From Candidatus Poribacteria bacterium (GTDB lineage Bacteria; Poribacteria; WGA-4E; WGA-3G), in NCBI GenBank assembly GCA_022822215.1, contig JAJECD010000224.1:1-33920 (forward strand): 33,920 nucleotides of DNA. The letters are read 5' to 3'. The position numbers and the translations under genes were made by a program. Positions 17,578 to 33,588 of this stretch are shown here, piece by piece (position 1 is the stretch's first letter; the number at the start of each line of letters is the position of its first letter). The notes under the pieces are model-generated. The model ran no database searches. It worked only from the letters and a program-made list of their open reading frames with translations, and was not told the DNA's origin.

Positions 17578-18720
17578 ATGAAGCTCAACGGACAAACTCT
17601 TTTCAATAATACACCCGTCGAAATCGTCCTTGCCGACACACGCGTTCAGGAGATCCGTGAAGTCTCCGCCACTGACAGTACAACTTATGTCGCACCGGCA
17701 TTGATAGACATTCAGGTAAACGGCTTTGCCGGTTTTGACCTCAATGTCGCTACCGTTACATCAGAAGACGTATGTGCGATGGTGCGCGCCCTCTGGAAAG
17801 TTGGCACCGGATTCTTATGCCCGACAGTTGTAACCGGCTCTTTCGATCGGATTTGTAACTCGCTACACGCCATTACAGAAGCATCTAAAGCAGACGCGTT
17901 AGTTGCCCACGCCATGCTCGGTATCCACCTTGAAGGACCCTATATCTCCGCGGAGGATGGACCGCGCGGGGCACACCCGTTGGAACACGTTAGAAATCCA
18001 GATTGGGACGAATTCCAGCGATGGCAGGATATCGCTGAGGGGAAAATCACTATCGTAACCCTCGCGCCTGAAAAACAGGGCGCTATCCCGTTCATCGAAA
18101 AACTGGTTGCAGAGGGGACGGTCGTCGCGTTGGGGCATACAAACGCCGCCGCAACCGACATCCAAGCAGCAATTGATGCCGGGGCAAGACTCTCCACACA
18201 CCTCGGCAACGGGGCACACGCTTTAATCCGACGGCATCCAAACTACATTTGGGAGCAACTCGGTGCCGATGCACTCTGGGCAAGCCTGATTGTGGACGGA
18301 CATCACCTACCGCCCTCTGTCGCCAAGTCGATGATGCGTGCGAAGACCCTCGACCGATGCATCCTCGTTAGTGATGCGGTGGCTCTGGCAGGCATGAAAC
18401 CCGGTATCTACGAGTTCGCTGAGAAATCCGTAGAATTGACCGCTGACCGATGTGTCCGCTTGGTCGGCACTGAATATCTCGCCGGTTCTGCCATTGAATT
18501 GGCGCGCGGTATCGAAAACAGCGTCCGATTCGCAGGCATCTCGCTTGAAGAAGCCGTCTCACTCGCCACGCTACAACCGATGTATCTGCTGGACGCGAAG
18601 GCACACGTAGAAACACAGACAGACTTGATCCTCTTTGAATGGAATGAATCACAGTGTGAAATCAATCTAATAGCGACAATCGTCAACAACAAGTTGGTTT
18701 ACCACGCGGAGACGGAATGA
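17578..18720 (+). CDS. nagA: N-acetylglucosamine-6-phosphate deacetylase
   Basis: 380 residues of the amidohydrolase superfamily. LIDIQVNGFAGFDLN is the strand-1 region, HLEGPYIS carries the metal-binding glutamate, ALGHTNAA and STHLGNGAH hold the two metal/substrate histidines, IVDGHHLPP the substrate-binding histidine and LVSDAVALAG the catalytic aspartate. The reaction removes acetate from GlcNAc-6-P, giving GlcN-6-P, in amino-sugar recycling or chitin use. The usual THLYNAM is replaced by THLGNGA, so a related substrate is possible. An upstream in-frame ATG at 17482 adds 32 residues without family similarity. The stop overlaps the TPR gene start. Confidence 0.88.
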   Translation: MKLNGQTLFNNTPVEIVLADTRVQEIREVSATDSTTYVAPALIDIQVNGFAGFDLNVATVTSEDVCAMVRALWKVGTGFLCPTVVTGSFDRICNSLHAITEASKADALVAHAMLGIHLEGPYISAEDGPRGAHPLEHVRNPDWDEFQRWQDIAEGKITIVTLAPEKQGAIPFIEKLVAEGTVVALGHTNAAATDIQAAIDAGARLSTHLGNGAHALIRRHPNYIWEQLGADALWASLIVDGHHLPPSVAKSMMRAKTLDRCILVSDAVALAGMKPGIYEFAEKSVELTADRCVRLVGTEYLAGSAIELARGIENSVRFAGISLEEAVSLATLQPMYLLDAKAHVETQTDLILFEWNESQCEINLIATIVNNKLVYHAETE

Positions 18721-20324
18721 TGTCCCAGAGATCGGTTCGTTATAATAGCACCGGCATAAGAAAAGTCTGGGTCGTAGGAAGTCTTTTCGTCTTCTATTTT
18801 CTGATATCCCCTGCAGCACAACAAACTAACGACGCACAGTCCAAACACTACGCACATGGCATGCGCGCAATTCAGTTAGGACTGTACGATGAAGCGGTTG
18901 ATGCCTTTCAGCAGGTCTTGAAATTAAATCCACAAAACGCTGAAGCATACTGTCAACTCGGTGCTGTTTACACATTGAAAGAAAAGACCAACGATGCTTT
19001 GGTGGCATACCTTCACGCCCTGGAATTGCCCGCACCTTCACAGACACACGGCGTTGCACACGTCTGTCTGGCGCGGATTTACCATTCGCAAGGCAAGTTC
19101 GCAGACGCTGAAAACCACGCGCAACACGCCACCGCTATGTTGCCGAAGAACGCTGAAGCCTTTTTTCGTCTCGCCGATACATACCTACAACGCGGAAAAT
19201 TCGACTTAGCACAACAAGCGTATCAACAAGCACTGACCCTTGATGCGAACCTTGCGCCAGTCTATCACGGCTTAGGGAAAGTCGCGTTTCTCCAGAACAG
19301 GTTGACGGAAGCCGGGCAATATTACCAGAAAGCTCTCTCTCTTTCACCCTATCACGCCGAAACCTACTACAACCTCGCACTCGTCCATCGACGTTTAGGA
19401 CAGCGTTCCGTAGGAGAGGGTTCTAACCCTGATCCCTCACAGCACATAGCAGAAGCAAAAAGCCTCATGGACTCCTTTCAAGAAGTAAAAGCCTATAACG
19501 AACAGACGAATCAATACCGTAGACACCTGTTGGAAGAACCCACTGCCTTAGAGCCACGCCTTAAGTTGGCAGCGGCGCACTTTGAGATTGGAAACCATCA
19601 AGAAGCAATACGTGCCTATCAAAACGCAACAGCACTATATCCAGATGCCCCGGCACTCTACCACAATCTCGGTGGACTTTACATGCAGATGGGACAATTT
19701 CCAGAAGCGGTCAAGGCATTTCAACGACTTATTCAACTCGATGATACCGACGCTGAAGCATATCTTAACCTCGGTTGGCTCCACGCACGCCTCCGTAAAT
19801 TCACCGACGCACAGACCTACCTACAAACCGCAATTCAGAAAGACAAGCGTCTGACACCCGCCTATTACGGACTCGCAGAAGTCTACGTGCAACAACGCCA
19901 GTTTGCTGAGGCAACCGCTGTCTATCGGCAGTTAGCAGAAACAATTCCGAACGATGCCACACCGTGGGTACGGTTAGGCGTGCTACACATTAAACAGCAA
20001 CAGGCATCAGACGCTATCGCCGCCTTTACGCAAGCGATTACAGTGGACGAGAATTCGGCAGACGCACATAACAACCTCGCGTGGCTTTATGCGACAGAAG
20101 AAAAAGAACTCGGGCGCGCCGTTGAATTGGCAGAACGTGCCGTCGTATTAGACACGAATGCCTCCCGCTTGGATACCCTCGCCTTCGTATATTATCGTCA
20201 CGGTGCCTATCCAGAGGCGGAAGAGGCTATCTTACGCGCGATTACCTTGGAACCCAATAACGCCGCTTACAAAACCCGTCTGAATGAAATTCGGCAGGCA
20301 ATGGAGGATACCGACCAACAATGA
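18717..20324 (+). CDS. Exported or membrane-anchored TPR protein
   Basis: 535 residues. A hydrophobic N-terminal stretch (VWVVGSLFVFYFLIS) serves as signal or anchor, then about ten 34-residue TPR units fill the rest, e.g. YDEAVDAFQQVLKLNPQNAE, FPEAVKAFQRLIQLDDTDAE and AYYGLAEVYVQQRQFAEATA. TPR superhelices are binding scaffolds. The start overlaps the nagA stop and the stop overlaps the next start (ATGA at 20321), so translation is coupled to the ASPIC/UnbV gene. TPR + ASPIC/UnbV pairs recur in many uncultured bacteria. Function unknown beyond binding. Confidence 0.9.
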   Translation: MMSQRSVRYNSTGIRKVWVVGSLFVFYFLISPAAQQTNDAQSKHYAHGMRAIQLGLYDEAVDAFQQVLKLNPQNAEAYCQLGAVYTLKEKTNDALVAYLHALELPAPSQTHGVAHVCLARIYHSQGKFADAENHAQHATAMLPKNAEAFFRLADTYLQRGKFDLAQQAYQQALTLDANLAPVYHGLGKVAFLQNRLTEAGQYYQKALSLSPYHAETYYNLALVHRRLGQRSVGEGSNPDPSQHIAEAKSLMDSFQEVKAYNEQTNQYRRHLLEEPTALEPRLKLAAAHFEIGNHQEAIRAYQNATALYPDAPALYHNLGGLYMQMGQFPEAVKAFQRLIQLDDTDAEAYLNLGWLHARLRKFTDAQTYLQTAIQKDKRLTPAYYGLAEVYVQQRQFAEATAVYRQLAETIPNDATPWVRLGVLHIKQQQASDAIAAFTQAITVDENSADAHNNLAWLYATEEKELGRAVELAERAVVLDTNASRLDTLAFVYYRHGAYPEAEEAILRAITLEPNNAAYKTRLNEIRQAMEDTDQQ

Positions 20325-22003
20325 TAGTCTCCGCTGTACGCCTTGGCAAAACCGCCTTACTTCTCTTTTTTTTTCTTGGCTGTACAATGCTCAGCACATC
20401 GGCAGGACACGCCGTTACCTTCGTTGAAGTGGCTGCGGAATCCGGTATCGACTTCAAACACACAGACGGTGAGAGCGGCAAACGCCTATTTAATGAACAA
20501 TACGGGTCGGGAGGCGGGCTTTTTGACTACAACAATGACGGCTATCTCGACATCTACCTTATCAATGCCCGTCCACAGGGAGAACAGGCGGACACTGCAT
20601 TGCCTACCAACGTCCTCTATCACAACAACGGCGACGGTTCATTTACAGATGTTACCCAGCTCGCAGGTGTTGGGGATACCGGCTACGGGGTCGGCGCAAC
20701 AACTGGCGACTACGATAATGACGGCGACCTGGATCTCTACTTAACGAACTTCGGACCCAACGTTCTCTACCGGAACAACGGAGACGGCACTTTCACAGAC
20801 GTTGCCGAAACAGCACAGGTCGTAGATACAGGGTGGGGGACGAGCTGCGCATTCGCCGATTTTGATAATGACGGATACTTGGAACTCTACGTAACCAATT
20901 ACGCAAACTATACCCTCGAGGCACACAAAACGTGCTATCGACACAACACCCCTGTCTATTGCGGTCCCAGCTCGTATCCACCGCAACCAGACGTGTTTTA
21001 TCACAACAACGGGAACGGCACTTTCACGGATTTAACTGAACAAAGCGGTCTGCTAAGTATCCCCGCAGCGCACGGTCTCGGCGTTGCCGTTGGAGACACC
21101 GACAACGACGGCGACCCCGACATCTACATCGCCAACGATCAAGACTTCAACTTCCTTTTTGAAAACCGCGGGAACGGCATCTTTGAAGAAATTGGATTGC
21201 TCTCTGGCGTGAGTTGCAGCGACATGGGGAAAGCAGAGGCAGGCATGGGGGTCGCCTTCGCAGACTACAACAACGACGGCAGATTGGATCTCACGGTCAG
21301 CAACTTTCAGAACGAAACGAACACGCTCTATCGCAATGAAGGTGGAAACTTTTTTATAGATACCACGATTATCGCTGGCATCGCTGAACACACGCACCGC
21401 TACCTCGGTTGGGGCATCGGTTTTCTCGATCATGATAACGACGGCTACAAGGATATCTTCGTCGCGAACGGGCATACGATGGATAACATCGCTGAAGTTG
21501 ATCGCTCCACGACGACACCACAGCAGAACCTACTCTTTCGGAACTTAGGAAATGGGCAATTTGAGGACATCACGGCACAACTCGGAGCAGGTCTCGCACT
21601 ACGTAAAACAAGCCGCGCCGCCGCTTTTGGCGACTACGACAATGACGGCGACGTTGATATCCTCGTCACGAACTGGAATCAGACCGTTGATCTGCTAAGA
21701 AACGAGGGTGGAAACAAAAATAATTGGATACAGGTCCAGGCGGTTGGGACGAAAAGCAATCGTTCAGCGATTGGGGCGCGCGTCAAAGTTGTTGCAGGTG
21801 AACTGACACAGTCCGCAGAAGTCAAGAGCAGTGGGAGTTATCTCGCATTTAACGACCTACGCGTCCATTTCGGATTGAACGATGCTGAAAACGTAGATTT
21901 GCTGGAGATTCGTTGGCAAAGTGGGATTGTTGACAAGGCGACCAACCTTACGGTGAATCAACGGCTCATCGCAATTGAGGGTGAAAAAATTGCGTCTGAA
22001 TAA
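20321..22003 (+). CDS. CRTAC1-like FG-GAP/VCBS repeat protein with ASPIC/UnbV domain, secreted
   Basis: 560 residues. Signal peptide (ALLLFFFLGCTMLSTSAGHA), then a seven-bladed-type propeller with repeated calcium-binding loops such as DYNNDGYLDIYL, DYDNDGDLDLYL, DFDNDGYLELYV, DTDNDGDPDIYI and DYDNDGDVDILV. The last 110 residues have the ASPIC/UnbV pattern: NRSAIGARVKV, GSYLAFNDLRVHFGL and LLEIRWQSG. A cysteine in the signal region (LGC) could make it a lipoprotein, though the lipobox is not ideal. It is probably an extracytoplasmic binding protein working with the TPR partner. Confidence 0.93.
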   Translation: MIVSAVRLGKTALLLFFFLGCTMLSTSAGHAVTFVEVAAESGIDFKHTDGESGKRLFNEQYGSGGGLFDYNNDGYLDIYLINARPQGEQADTALPTNVLYHNNGDGSFTDVTQLAGVGDTGYGVGATTGDYDNDGDLDLYLTNFGPNVLYRNNGDGTFTDVAETAQVVDTGWGTSCAFADFDNDGYLELYVTNYANYTLEAHKTCYRHNTPVYCGPSSYPPQPDVFYHNNGNGTFTDLTEQSGLLSIPAAHGLGVAVGDTDNDGDPDIYIANDQDFNFLFENRGNGIFEEIGLLSGVSCSDMGKAEAGMGVAFADYNNDGRLDLTVSNFQNETNTLYRNEGGNFFIDTTIIAGIAEHTHRYLGWGIGFLDHDNDGYKDIFVANGHTMDNIAEVDRSTTTPQQNLLFRNLGNGQFEDITAQLGAGLALRKTSRAAAFGDYDNDGDVDILVTNWNQTVDLLRNEGGNKNNWIQVQAVGTKSNRSAIGARVKVVAGELTQSAEVKSSGSYLAFNDLRVHFGLNDAENVDLLEIRWQSGIVDKATNLTVNQRLIAIEGEKIASE

Positions 22004-22299: not shown

Positions 22300-23142
22300 G
22301 TGAAATTGCTTATTTCAACACTCACTATCGCTGTATTGGCGATTTGTATAACAACGTCTGCGTTGGCAGACCTAAATGATGGCGTCATCGCTGCCTGGAC
22401 CTTTGACGACGGAAAAGTAACGGATGCCATTGGTGATGCCCACGGTGAACTCTTTAAGGGTGCTAAAATCACCAATGATGGTAAATTTGGCAAGGCACTG
22501 GATGTTGATGGAAATCAAGATTCCCGTGCAGACATTGAATTCGACAATGACCTTGAGTCAATTATTGAGGGACCGCACACTGTCTCCTACTGGCTCTTTG
22601 TTCGAGAGGGTAGAGACCACTCCGGCGTTTGGAAAGGCGAAAAGGTCGGTTGGGGTGCAAATTTCACCTTCCGTATGGTAACGACCAGTAGTACCAATAT
22701 GACGTGGGGAACAACAAGTGGCGGCAACGAAAACTGGTTCGCGACGGATGGTGCCATTGAACCGAATACGTGGCTCCATATTTGTCAAACAGCGGACGGC
22801 AAGGAAGCTATCGGGTACGTCGGAAATAATGGTAAAGTCGAAATACCTGCCAGTGGTCAGGCAAATCCGCAAGTTGCTCCGGAACCCTACAACCTGTTCC
22901 CAGATCGTCCCTTGGAACTTGGCGCAGGTCGAGGTATCGGTGGTAATGATGGAAACGATACGTTCCTTGACGGCATCATCGACGATGTCATTATCTGGGA
23001 CCGCGCCCTCTCTGAAGATGAGGTCGAGGAACTCGCGAACGAATCGCGCCCAGATAAAGCACTCGCAGTCAAGGCGGAAGGCAAATTAACCACGTCGTGG
23101 GGGAAGGTCAAATCCTATCACCACCGCGATAACCGCCGCTAA
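22300..23142 (+). CDS. Secreted LamG/concanavalin-like domain protein (copy 1)
   Basis: 280 residues. Signal peptide with likely cleavage after ALA (residue 23 or so), then one jelly-roll LamG domain: DGVIAAWTFDDG at the start, WKGEKVGWG and TNMTWG in the middle, GIGGNDGND and IIDDVIIWDRALSEDEVEEL at the end, the classic last strand. It lacks an obvious catalytic residue, so it probably binds carbohydrate or protein outside the cell. The tail LAVKAEGKLTTSWGKVK is shared with the next gene. GTG start with AAAGGAGG 9 bases upstream. Confidence 0.92.
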   Translation: MKLLISTLTIAVLAICITTSALADLNDGVIAAWTFDDGKVTDAIGDAHGELFKGAKITNDGKFGKALDVDGNQDSRADIEFDNDLESIIEGPHTVSYWLFVREGRDHSGVWKGEKVGWGANFTFRMVTTSSTNMTWGTTSGGNENWFATDGAIEPNTWLHICQTADGKEAIGYVGNNGKVEIPASGQANPQVAPEPYNLFPDRPLELGAGRGIGGNDGNDTFLDGIIDDVIIWDRALSEDEVEELANESRPDKALAVKAEGKLTTSWGKVKSYHHRDNRR

Positions 23143-23194
23143 GCCTAATTGAGAATCTAAAAATAGAGCGTGAAATAGTAAGGAGCTTTTTATC

Positions 23195-24040
23195 ATGAAA
23201 CACATTGGTTTACTTTTCATTTTAGCACTTATGGTATTCGCTACCAACGGTTACGCCGAACTCGCTGACGGTCTCGTCTCTGTCTGGAACTTTGACGACG
23301 GCTCAGCAAACGATTCTATCGGCAGTAACGATGGGGCATTTATGAACGGTGCCGGCACTGTAGATGCCGAATTCGGTATGGCACTTAACCTTGATAATCC
23401 CGAAAATCCGGCGACGGGTGAAAACACCGGACAATACGTCGAAATCCCCTCATCCGCAAGCCTTGAACAAGAAGACGGTGTTTTCTCTGTCTCGTTGTGG
23501 GCCTACGTCAGAACCGATGGCGGCAGAGACCACGCTGCGATGTTCTGGAAAGGTGAAAAAGTCGGTTGGGGTGCTCTTTTTATGGTTCGGATGTGTACCA
23601 CGAACGCCACTAACATGACGTGGGGCAGCTGCTGGGAAGGCACGGAAGGGTGGTTCGCTACGGATAATGTTTACGCAGAAGAGGAATGGGTCCACGTCGC
23701 TTATGTTGCCGATGGCACAGAAGCAAAGGCGTATGTAACCTCTTCCGCTACCGGTGACACTGTTGTACCCGCGAGCGGACAAGAAAACCCGAAACCGATT
23801 ACACCACCGCTGTTCACATTCGCAGACCAGCCTGTTGAAATCGGTGTCGGACGGCAGGTCGGGGGCAACCTCGGAAACGACAACTGGCTTGACGCCATGA
23901 TTGATGAGGTCTACTTCTGGGATCGTGCCCTCAGTGAAGATGAAGTCCGGGAACTTGCTGGCGGTGCACTTGTCGGTGCTGTCAGTGTGGAAGCGCAAGG
24001 CAAACTCGCTACCACATGGGCACACATCAAGAAACACTAA
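23195..24040 (+). CDS. Secreted LamG/concanavalin-like domain protein (copy 2)
   Basis: 281 residues, a paralogue of the gene 52 bases upstream. Signal peptide ends near GYA|E. Shared blocks include WKGEKVGWG, TNMTWG, WFATD, GGNLGND and WDRALSEDEVRELA, and the C-terminal LATTWAHIKKH parallels LTTSWGKVK. Overall the two look about half identical. AAGGAG lies 9 bases before the ATG. A strong terminator 20 bases after the stop ends the two-gene unit. No membrane anchor is seen, so it is probably periplasmic or released. Confidence 0.92.
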   Translation: MKHIGLLFILALMVFATNGYAELADGLVSVWNFDDGSANDSIGSNDGAFMNGAGTVDAEFGMALNLDNPENPATGENTGQYVEIPSSASLEQEDGVFSVSLWAYVRTDGGRDHAAMFWKGEKVGWGALFMVRMCTTNATNMTWGSCWEGTEGWFATDNVYAEEEWVHVAYVADGTEAKAYVTSSATGDTVVPASGQENPKPITPPLFTFADQPVEIGVGRQVGGNLGNDNWLDAMIDEVYFWDRALSEDEVRELAGGALVGAVSVEAQGKLATTWAHIKKH

Positions 24041-27097: not shown

Positions 27098-27610
27098 TTA
27101 ATTTACGGTGTTAACAGCATGTTCGGTCTTGCGCGCTTCCATCTCTTGCCGCAACGCTTCAATCTGTTCGTGCTGCGCTTCGATTTGTTTTTGCTGCGCC
27201 TCAATTTTCTCGTCTTGTGCCCGTTGGTGTTTTCGCTGCGTCGCAACGATGATTTGCGGTATCCCTACAACAACACCAATAAAAGCAACTAACACTATAA
27301 CCAGCCCGAAGATCTGCTCCAACCGCTTGTCCATCTCCGAGATTGTCATATTAACAATCTTAATTTCTTGAGAGACGTATTCGCGCATCCGCTTTTCAGA
27401 GGCAGTAATCTCTGTTTTCGTCCGCTTTTCAGCGGCAGCGATCTCTGCTTTCATCCGCTTTTCAGAGGCAGCAATCTCTTCTCTAACGATAATGCGGACA
27501 TCCTCTCTAAGCAGCGTGCGGATTTTTTCAAAATCCTCCAAGCTGAGTTCGCTGGATGCTGGCATAGCCCAAATCAATAAACTGAGGCTTAAAATTAGTG
27601 TCAACCGCAT
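27098..27610 (-). CDS. Coiled-coil protein with signal peptide and one membrane segment
   Basis: 170 residues from ATG 27610 (AAGGA 8-10 bases upstream). Signal-like N-terminus LTLILSLSLLIWAMPASS, then hydrophilic helix with three 11-residue repeats (AASEKRMKAEI, AAAEKRTKTEI, TASEKRMREYV), a membrane segment IFGLVIVLVAFIGVVVGIP, and a tail with heptads (KIEAQQK, QIEAQHE, QIEALRQ). Predicted topology: coiled coil outside, short coil inside. The 33-base DNA repeat behind it lies at about 27385-27480. Function unknown; such proteins may brace envelope structures. Confidence 0.75.
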   Translation of the reverse strand: MRLTLILSLSLLIWAMPASSELSLEDFEKIRTLLREDVRIIVREEIAASEKRMKAEIAAAEKRTKTEITASEKRMREYVSQEIKIVNMTISEMDKRLEQIFGLVIVLVAFIGVVVGIPQIIVATQRKHQRAQDEKIEAQQKQIEAQHEQIEALRQEMEARKTEHAVNTVN

Positions 27611-27667
27611 CTCTTTTTCCTTCACGCTGTGAGAGGCGGGGTTTGAAACCAACCACGCCTACAATAT

Positions 27668-31216: not shown

Positions 31217-33313
31217 TCATTGGACGCTCACGGTTGCCAATCCGTTGGCGGTCGCTATCCATGCTCTATTATTCGCCACAACAAGAGACTGAATTGTTGT
31301 CAATTCACCCGATACGATTTGAGGGGTCGTCGTATCCTGCCACGCGCCAGACCGTGTGTGATGTGTGTAAAACAGATCGTTCGTTGCTATCCACAACACT
31401 AATGGCACTTCGGGTGTAGGCAGTAGTGGTTGCGCTTCTTCTTCGACTCCCATTTCAGCGGAGAATTCGGATTCCGACGGATCTTCTATTTCCACGATCT
31501 CCTCCGGCACTATTTCAGCCTCTTCCACAAAAGGTGCCTCGACCGCTTCCTCGATAGCAGCTTCCTCAAGAATAGGCGAAGTATCAAGAGCTCCCCGAAT
31601 ATAAATGTTCTTCAGTTTGTTTTCATCGTCTACGCCGGTGTGGAGCGTCGTCGATTTCCCGTTCCGACCATCTAAATCTGCCCGAAAATAACCGTTGGAC
31701 TTCTCATCAGTGTTGAACCATGTGAAGAGAAGCTGCTCGGCCGCGGCCTCAATCCCGACGATTGTCATACCTTCTCGAATTGCTATCGAATGGTATGTAT
31801 ACCACTCTTCTATCTCTCGATCAAAGGTCCCAATCACGCCATCTTCCGAGACACACCAGACCCGTTCAGGTGTAAGGACCAACGTCTCAAGGTCGTCTGC
31901 TGGCAGTTGGCTGTTCGGAACGTTGTAGACAAGAGGCGGATCAAGACTCCCGCGAATCCGACGGATAGCACCGATACCGGTTGCGAACCAGATTTCTGTT
32001 TCGTCCATCTTGATGTCCCTGACCCAATCGGGGAAGCCATCTATGGGTGAATACGCCTGAATTTCGCCGGTTAACCTGTCGTAATGGATCGCGCCTTGCG
32101 AACGCGTGCCGATCCACACCTCTTGTGCGTTGACAGCGATGGCTCTAACATCTGGAACCGTTTCGACGGCACTATTAATAAGTTGCGGGATATCTTCAAT
32201 AGGTATCCATTTATCATACGCAGTCTCAAACAGCATAATACCTTTCGCGGTGCCGATCCACAACTTTGTTTCATCATTGACGATAGCCTGTATCTGATTG
32301 TCTGGCAGTCCGTCTGCGTCTGTGTAAACCGTCCATCGCGTCTGATCAAGAATCTGTTTCGCCCGTTCCTTCACAGGCTCATCTATGCTTGACTCGTAGA
32401 TGAGACTCGCTTCACTCGCAGCCTCTGAGATCCGACCAAGTTTTAAATTGACCTCAGCGCGGGTAAGGCGCGCTTCATAAACCCACTCGCTTATCGGGTA
32501 GCGGATAATAAATCCCTGTAAAGTATGAAGGGCATCTTCTAAACGATCCGTTTCTGCTTGGAGTTTTCCTATCAGGAAAAACGCCTTTTCGTGTTCGGGC
32601 CTGTCCGGATACGCTGTGATCGCTGATTCAAGGAGCGTCAGCCCCGCAGCCGCATCCTCCAACTGTTCAACGAATAGAAATCCGGTAATATAACGCAATG
32701 CGGGAACGGATGGGTGTTCTGGATAATGGGTCAGGATTAACTGATAGTTATCCACGGCTTCAGCATACGCGCCACTGGCGAGTGCGGTATCGCCGAACTC
32801 CTGAAAGAACGGCACGAGGTCATAATTGGCGGCATCAAGGATCGCCACAGAGCGGAAGCGTTCCAACGCGCTGGCAGTGTCGCCCTCTGCTTTGTGAAGC
32901 AAGCCGAGTTGATAGTGCGCAGCGGGGTATTTTGGGAGTTCCTCAATCGCGGCTTTAAAACGCCCTTTCGCGTTCTCGGGGAGTCCTAACTCCAAGAGCA
33001 TGCGTCCATTGCGGAAATACTTCGCAGCGGTTCGATCTGGAACGTGTGTGGTATCTGACGTGAAATCAAGACTATAACCTGTCACGGGCAGCCGTAACAC
33101 CTGTCCATTATACTCAATTTCAAAATGGGTTTCGGTGGCACCACGCCAAGTACCGGTTAATCTATCACCGTTCTCTCCATCTACGACGACGTACTGCTGA
33201 CTGTAAGCAGGGGACTGATAGATGAATAGAACGGCTGATATTATTAGCGCGAATAGACGGTAAGTTTTCTGTTTTTTTGTTTGTGTCTTTTTTTTACAGG
33301 TCTGATGCAACAT
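31217..33313 (-). CDS. Large exported TPR + beta-propeller protein
   Basis: 698 residues. Basic N-terminus and signal segment (LFALIISAVLFIYQSPAYS), a small beta domain (QQYVVVDGENGDRLTGTWRG), then TPR units from about residue 100 to 310 (e.g. YPAAHYQLGLLHKAEGDTAS), followed by repeated blades of the two-component-regulator-propeller kind: IQAIVNDETKLWIGTAKGIM, VWIGTRSQGAIHYDR and IWFATGIGAIRRI. An acidic linker (EEAAIEEAVEAPFVEEAEIV region) interrupts the last blades. No kinase domain follows. Likely a periplasmic binding or sensing scaffold. Confidence 0.85.
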   Translation of the reverse strand: MLHQTCKKKTQTKKQKTYRLFALIISAVLFIYQSPAYSQQYVVVDGENGDRLTGTWRGATETHFEIEYNGQVLRLPVTGYSLDFTSDTTHVPDRTAAKYFRNGRMLLELGLPENAKGRFKAAIEELPKYPAAHYQLGLLHKAEGDTASALERFRSVAILDAANYDLVPFFQEFGDTALASGAYAEAVDNYQLILTHYPEHPSVPALRYITGFLFVEQLEDAAAGLTLLESAITAYPDRPEHEKAFFLIGKLQAETDRLEDALHTLQGFIIRYPISEWVYEARLTRAEVNLKLGRISEAASEASLIYESSIDEPVKERAKQILDQTRWTVYTDADGLPDNQIQAIVNDETKLWIGTAKGIMLFETAYDKWIPIEDIPQLINSAVETVPDVRAIAVNAQEVWIGTRSQGAIHYDRLTGEIQAYSPIDGFPDWVRDIKMDETEIWFATGIGAIRRIRGSLDPPLVYNVPNSQLPADDLETLVLTPERVWCVSEDGVIGTFDREIEEWYTYHSIAIREGMTIVGIEAAAEQLLFTWFNTDEKSNGYFRADLDGRNGKSTTLHTGVDDENKLKNIYIRGALDTSPILEEAAIEEAVEAPFVEEAEIVPEEIVEIEDPSESEFSAEMGVEEEAQPLLPTPEVPLVLWIATNDLFYTHHTRSGAWQDTTTPQIVSGELTTIQSLVVANNRAWIATANGLATVSVQ

Positions 33314-33588
33314 AATTTACCTTCAAAATATAGGTTGATATTTATAGACTTAATAATTACTTCGTCAAGCGTATCGCGCGGTATCCATGCCCAATATTGA
33401 TGGGCGCGACAGTGGGTACGCAGACACGCCACCAAGCGGTGACGCTGCTCATATCTACCCCTATGATACCATCATTATACTACATTTTGGCGATAATATC
33501 AAGAGAAAACATAGGTGCGGCAGAGGCATTCAATTCTCCAAAACTTTTAGAAATGGTATAAATCCCGTAAGGACGCAAAGAGGTTGGA
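33314..33588. other. Intergenic region without a recognisable gene
   Basis: AT-rich near the start of the propeller gene, then mixed. Short frames here have no coding character. I see no RNA gene. Confidence 0.5.

Follow-up and report, generated by a model that had tools for sequence, protein, structure and literature searches.

The type IX secretion system (T9SS) is common in Bacteroidota, and the GlyGly-CTERM and PEP-CTERM tags contain a membrane helix. The type-A C-terminal domain (CTD) of T9SS, of about 72-85 aa counted from (Y/F)PNP, is a C-terminal signal placed on many Sec-exported proteins per genome, while in the sortase, exosortase, rhombosortase and myxosortase tags the signature is followed by a hydrophobic segment. 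GlyGly-CTERM/rhombosortase (PMC3237569) and PEP-CTERM/exosortase exemplify short signatures found right at the C-terminal end of exported proteins that are not related to each other. The MYXO-CTERM/myxosortase tag is a phylum-wide C-terminal tag of dozens of proteins per genome and is tripartite around an invariant cysteine (PMC11980579). With respect to the sponge-associated Poribacteria, Kamke et al. 2014 found the T9SS C-terminal domain in this phylum and did not find the structural genes (PMC3909097). Here we describe, in the same genomes, a C-terminal tail of about 17 aa that looks like an address label new to description. Pfam and NCBIfam gave no match naming it, and our literature search with the motif strings found no paper naming it. 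As in the general class of modular C-terminal sorting signals, one signature is found on unrelated exported proteins and many times per genome.

The tail was noticed in a stretch of 33,920 nucleotides from a Candidatus Poribacteria draft genome (contig JAJECD010000224.1), hereafter the window, which carries two LamG genes in tandem with the following features.

22300..23142, plus strand: LamG gene 1, an open reading frame (ORF) of 280 aa with a GTG start and the stop codon TAA at 23140-23142
22300..22368, plus strand: predicted Sec/SPI signal peptide of gene 1, MKLLISTLTIAVLAICITTSALA, from the sequence and a heuristic predictor
22567..23025, plus strand: LamG/ConA-like domain of gene 1 (PF13385, aa 90-242, E=7.2e-13)
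23062..23112, plus strand: C-terminal tail of gene 1, LAVKAEGKLTTSWGKVK (aa 255-271), then SYHHRDNRR
23195..24040, plus strand: LamG gene 2, an ORF of 281 aa
23195..23257, plus strand: predicted Sec/SPI signal peptide of gene 2, MKHIGLLFILALMVFATNGYA, from the sequence, a heuristic predictor and a helix at residues 2-18 of the AlphaFold2 (AF2) model
23426..23947, plus strand: LamG/ConA-like domain of gene 2 (PF13385, aa 78-251, E=1.1e-15)
23981..24031, plus strand: C-terminal tail of gene 2, VSVEAQGKLATTWAHIK (aa 263-279), then KH

The C-terminus of gene 1 runs through WDRALSEDEVEEL, a variable linker, LAVKAEGKLTTSWGKVK and SYHHRDNRR, and that of gene 2 through WDRALSEDEVREL, a variable linker, VSVEAQGKLATTWAHIK and KH. 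The two paralogues are 45% identical over their full length and share the ending V-x-x-x-G-K-L-x-T-(T/S)-W-(G/A)-x-(I/V)-K, after which 2-9 residues remain; the shared tail that the original prediction placed past the LamG domain, behind a variable linker, is therefore confirmed in both ORFs. Although LamG (PF13385) is the carrier in both window genes, the domain does not extend into the tail, which is also found on 27 other clusters of host proteins. Other secreted-looking ORFs of the window (18717-20324, 20321-22003, 27098-27652 and 31220-33316) are devoid of it, so only some of the exported proteins are marked by the tail. Immediately upstream of the two LamG genes lie a TPR protein (18717-20324) and then an FG-GAP-type repeat protein (20321-22003), both assigned by eye, secreted-looking and without the tail.

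How often the tail occurs was estimated with the motif back-translated to degenerate DNA (strict pattern, roughly K[LF]xT[TS]W[GA]x[IVM]K), the reversed pattern serving as control. In the 4.3-Mb draft genome of the window, 21 matches were obtained versus none for the control, all 21 lying 1-9 residues from a stop codon, a frequency far beyond chance. A relaxed pattern gave 45 matches versus 2 in the same draft, 73 versus 0 in a complete genome of 5.06 Mb (G080) and 32 versus 1 in a single-contig genome (G047). At the scale of the phylum, 83 of 85 Ca. Poribacteria genomes contain strict matches (1 to 56 per genome; reversed control 0), and the two others, G021 and G009, have 5 and 1 relaxed matches, respectively. 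G021 belongs to the same order as the window genome and possesses SprA with just these five tails; G009, of the same class, possesses SprA, PorV and 27 CTDs with its single tail. None of 198 Bacteroidota genomes matched the strict pattern. The GTDB-220 contig collection was scanned with one variant (the tail with K(R/S)-stop after it) that covers a minority of tails, and yielded 22 loci, among which all long in-frame ORFs are from records labelled Poribacteria and the others are chance frames of 13-57 codons. By this one-variant scan, the tail is likely absent outside Poribacteria, less surely so for other phyla of the FCB group.

The original prediction proposed recurrence on unrelated signal-peptide proteins as its test, and the outcome was positive. 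When 160 host proteins were stripped of signal peptide and tail and compared (between-cluster similarity cut-off E<1e-4), 28 clusters resulted that share no detectable similarity, the LamG cluster accounting for 83/160. Aligned together, 55 non-LamG hosts have a mean column identity of 10%, and none of them deviates at the tail L, T, W and K, all four being part of the search pattern. Our anatomy set of 167 distinct ORFs, collected with a slightly relaxed pattern, has the motif at most 12 residues from the stop in every case (167/167), and its column counts define a 17-residue signature, [L]-[A]-V-[DE]-P-x-G-K-L-[TA]-T-T-W-[GA]-x-[IL]-K, beyond which 1-12 mostly polar or basic residues follow. 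Neither pattern demanded V-14, found in 147/167, and only the strict one demanded K-9, found in 144/167, so that their conservation is largely independent evidence; with one representative per host cluster, each is found in 25/28 and the full signature is kept. Synonymous codons of every kind occur at the conserved tail residues, as exemplified by T-6 (ACC 52, ACA 51, ACG 45, ACT 19, i.e., all four), and over the 45-nt tail segment the DNA sequences are on average 60% identical in pairwise comparison; this freedom of synonymous codons indicates selection on the peptide. No conserved cysteine occurs in the tail columns, C being listed only at position -5 (3/167). We are nearly certain that the tail is genuine and acts at the peptide level as a modular C-terminal signal on exported proteins of Poribacteria.

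Proteins bearing the tail are small, mostly 220-440 aa. A simple heuristic detected a signal peptide in 142/151 complete ORFs versus 2/151 for internal starts, and several of its nine misses resemble signal peptides by eye. A lipobox, searched by pattern, was found in 0/151 complete ORFs, and a hydrophobic segment (17-residue window of mean hydropathy >1.6 within the last 45 aa) in 0/150 proteins; on these two counts a lipoprotein or a membrane-anchored CTERM tag was rejected. The tail is also borne by a DUF362 protein whose signal resembles the twin-arginine type (L028:1495-2718, minus strand), which suggests that the tail acts following either Sec or Tat export.

The tail proteins share with T9SS cargo the Sec signal (142/151 by the heuristic) and the C-terminal position of the signature (167/167), but the tail has only a fraction of the length of a CTD. 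Unlike MYXO-CTERM, it has neither a conserved cysteine nor a hydrophobic segment, and it differs from GlyGly-CTERM and PEP-CTERM in that no membrane helix was found in 150 tail proteins; the hydrophobic segment that follows the signature in sortase, exosortase, rhombosortase and myxosortase tags is likewise missing from these 150. The tail is thus outside the T9SS CTD, MYXO-CTERM and the membrane-anchored CTERM families, since it departs from each in a tested defining feature. By functional analogy, it would nonetheless work most like the known CTERM and CTD tags.

We consider that the most likely role of the tail is sorting or anchoring in the envelope after Sec export, with a probability of roughly 0.6. 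The sorting or anchoring reading of the original prediction is in this respect supported, and the step that the tail serves we infer as follows. The host protein would be exported by Sec, rarely by Tat, and would fold in the periplasm with its tail left exposed, a reading for which the position of the tail beyond the fold in two AF2 models (see below) also speaks. The tail may then fold into a short helix of amphipathic character; with their spacing of 4 and 3, L-8, W-4 and I/L-1 would fall on a single face if the segment is helical. A putative envelope receptor would hold this helix and either deliver the host to, or anchor it at, the outer membrane or the cell surface. This receptor could belong to the PorV family, with its 13-25 members per genome, and the exit could be a SprA-type translocon; alternatively, a separate machine could fulfil both tasks. 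If correct, the tail would be a phylum-wide unannotated label that predicts tens of envelope proteins per genome, and the labelled proteins would sit in or on the envelope of an uncultured sponge symbiont, where host contact happens. Against sorting, it must be said that G009 keeps SprA, PorV and 27 CTDs with a single tail, and that the linkage to SprA is inconsistent.

The T9SS components of these genomes deserve attention in this regard. The classical C-terminal domain (TIGR04183) exceeds the cut-off in 30/30 genomes of the phylum, with 26-79 copies each; the window's own genome has 33 type-A domains (e.g., C225:2615-2875), mostly on large proteins. The PorV family is also over cut-off in 30/30 genomes (13-25 matches each), an example from the large paralogous set of the window genome being C132:5000-5980, and it is possible that PorV paralogues are shuttles for different C-terminal signals. 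A divergent SprA/Sov homologue of 2,259 aa is encoded on contig C193 of the window genome (L053:4536-11315, minus strand); it matches TIGR04189 in five stretches with E=2.9e-40 and 137.5 bits, below the curated cut-off of 200, and the homologue was found in 82/83 Poribacteria genomes. PorU-like proteins were found in 7/7 genomes with up to 323 bits, which does not reach the model cut-off of 420, and the PorU model also matches in two control genomes. The GldL model gave no match over cut-off in Poribacteria and a clear one in a Bacteroidota control, and the GldM model was silent wherever it was run, so that Poribacteria are not singled out. The SprA-, PorV- and PorU-like genes are candidates for the T9SS structural genes missing in PMC3909097, and they bear on the question raised by that study in the form of one exit or two for both signals.

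It is tempting to go one step further and to assign the tail to T9SS itself, a narrower version of sorting that overlaps with the envelope reading; we regard it as possible though on the unlikely side. The phylum does encode the SprA/Sov homologue, the PorV family and the PorU-like proteins, and the tail and the classical CTD never occur together, TIGR04183 being found on 0/103 tail proteins at E<=0.01, by which a classical CTD on the same proteins was rejected. Moreover, of 30 loci from the window's genus (L054-L083), 25 have a tail gene at most 1.5 kb from SprA when a looser regular expression is used; the first strict expression gave 3/30 in the same loci. The SprA-adjacent tail genes are usually LamG genes, often with the looser form KLAVTWGYLK. 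However, the ends of CTD proteins in these genomes (SGIYFYxLxxGxFxxTRKMxIxR) are unlike the tail, and together with the 0/103 they make the tail a second, distinct C-terminal signal. The linkage to SprA is lost outside the genus (1/20 loci) and is for this reason not taken as proof; the 25/30 genus loci are orthologous and amount to few independent events. The lack of strict matches in the 198 Bacteroidota genomes and the situation of G009 also argue against a T9SS-specific signal. Returning to envelope sorting, we would tentatively propose a second phylum-specific pathway beside T9SS, in which a receptor-bound helical tail without a membrane anchor is recognized by its own putative receptor. 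With equal reserve, the clients of such a pathway could be tens of small surface proteins per genome, lectin-like and others.

A more unlikely explanation is that the tail is a docking peptide that binds non-covalently, in a dockerin-like manner, to a scaffold or outer-membrane partner after export, and thus anchors without any role in transport; in full, small sugar-binding proteins would assemble into a surface complex. The nature of the hosts speaks for it: most contain small binding-type domains (LamG, CBM9, F5/8C, NPCBM, CBM4_9, PD40), they lack a transmembrane segment, and 73 relaxed-pattern matches occur in one complete genome. Pfam names among the hosts include PD40/TolB-like propellers, 3-keto-disaccharide hydrolase, CBM9, F5/8 type C, NPCBM, CBM4_9, rhamnosidase D2, ankyrin, LDL-receptor class B and DUF362. 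The structure models are also compatible with docking, as they depict the tail as flexible with one predicted hydrophobic helix face. In the AlphaFold2 model of window gene 2 (47 homologues, pTM 0.80), the last strand of the LamG sandwich spans aa 234-242 and is followed by a helix at aa 248-255, and the tail is drawn as a loose low-confidence helix (pLDDT <50 over 264-277 and 279-281). In an unrelated second host, from the 3-keto-disaccharide-hydrolase-like cluster, the domain ends at the strand 204-214 and the tail has pLDDT below 50 over 226-240 with a loose helix at 228-239, so that the tail is outside the modelled fold in two different hosts. Yet the presence of the tail on the Tat-type DUF362 protein and on TolB-like propellers makes the set too broad for a complex of binding proteins.

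It is quite improbable that the tail serves as a propeptide to be cleaved off, as a tag for folding or quality control, or as a periplasmic retention tag, in all cases with no role in surface sorting. An exposed, flexible and often basic-ended tail without a membrane anchor is what such a function would look like, and no NCBIfam surface-signal model matches the hosts (103 tail proteins scanned), but unrelated hosts conserve the very side chains of L-8, T-6, W-4 and K0, which suggests recognition by a specific receptor. Finally, we give practically no credit to a last LamG strand, a trait inherited among LamG paralogues or a repeated DNA element at the ends of genes, in spite of the LamG share of hosts (83/160) and of the strict or loose tail in 127/128 LamG-like ORFs with a complete 3' end (fetched loci, a tail-enriched sample), since the sandwich of gene 2 ends at aa 242 and the tail spans 263-279, 27 other host clusters rule out a paralogue trait, and the scatter of synonymous codons rules out a DNA repeat. 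The tail beyond the domain, as the original prediction had it, is accordingly neither limited to LamG paralogues nor the last LamG strand in the model. As for the carrier itself, a Foldseek search confirmed the concanavalin-A-like fold, with 5hon (arabinanase domain) as best PDB match (E=4.5e-10).
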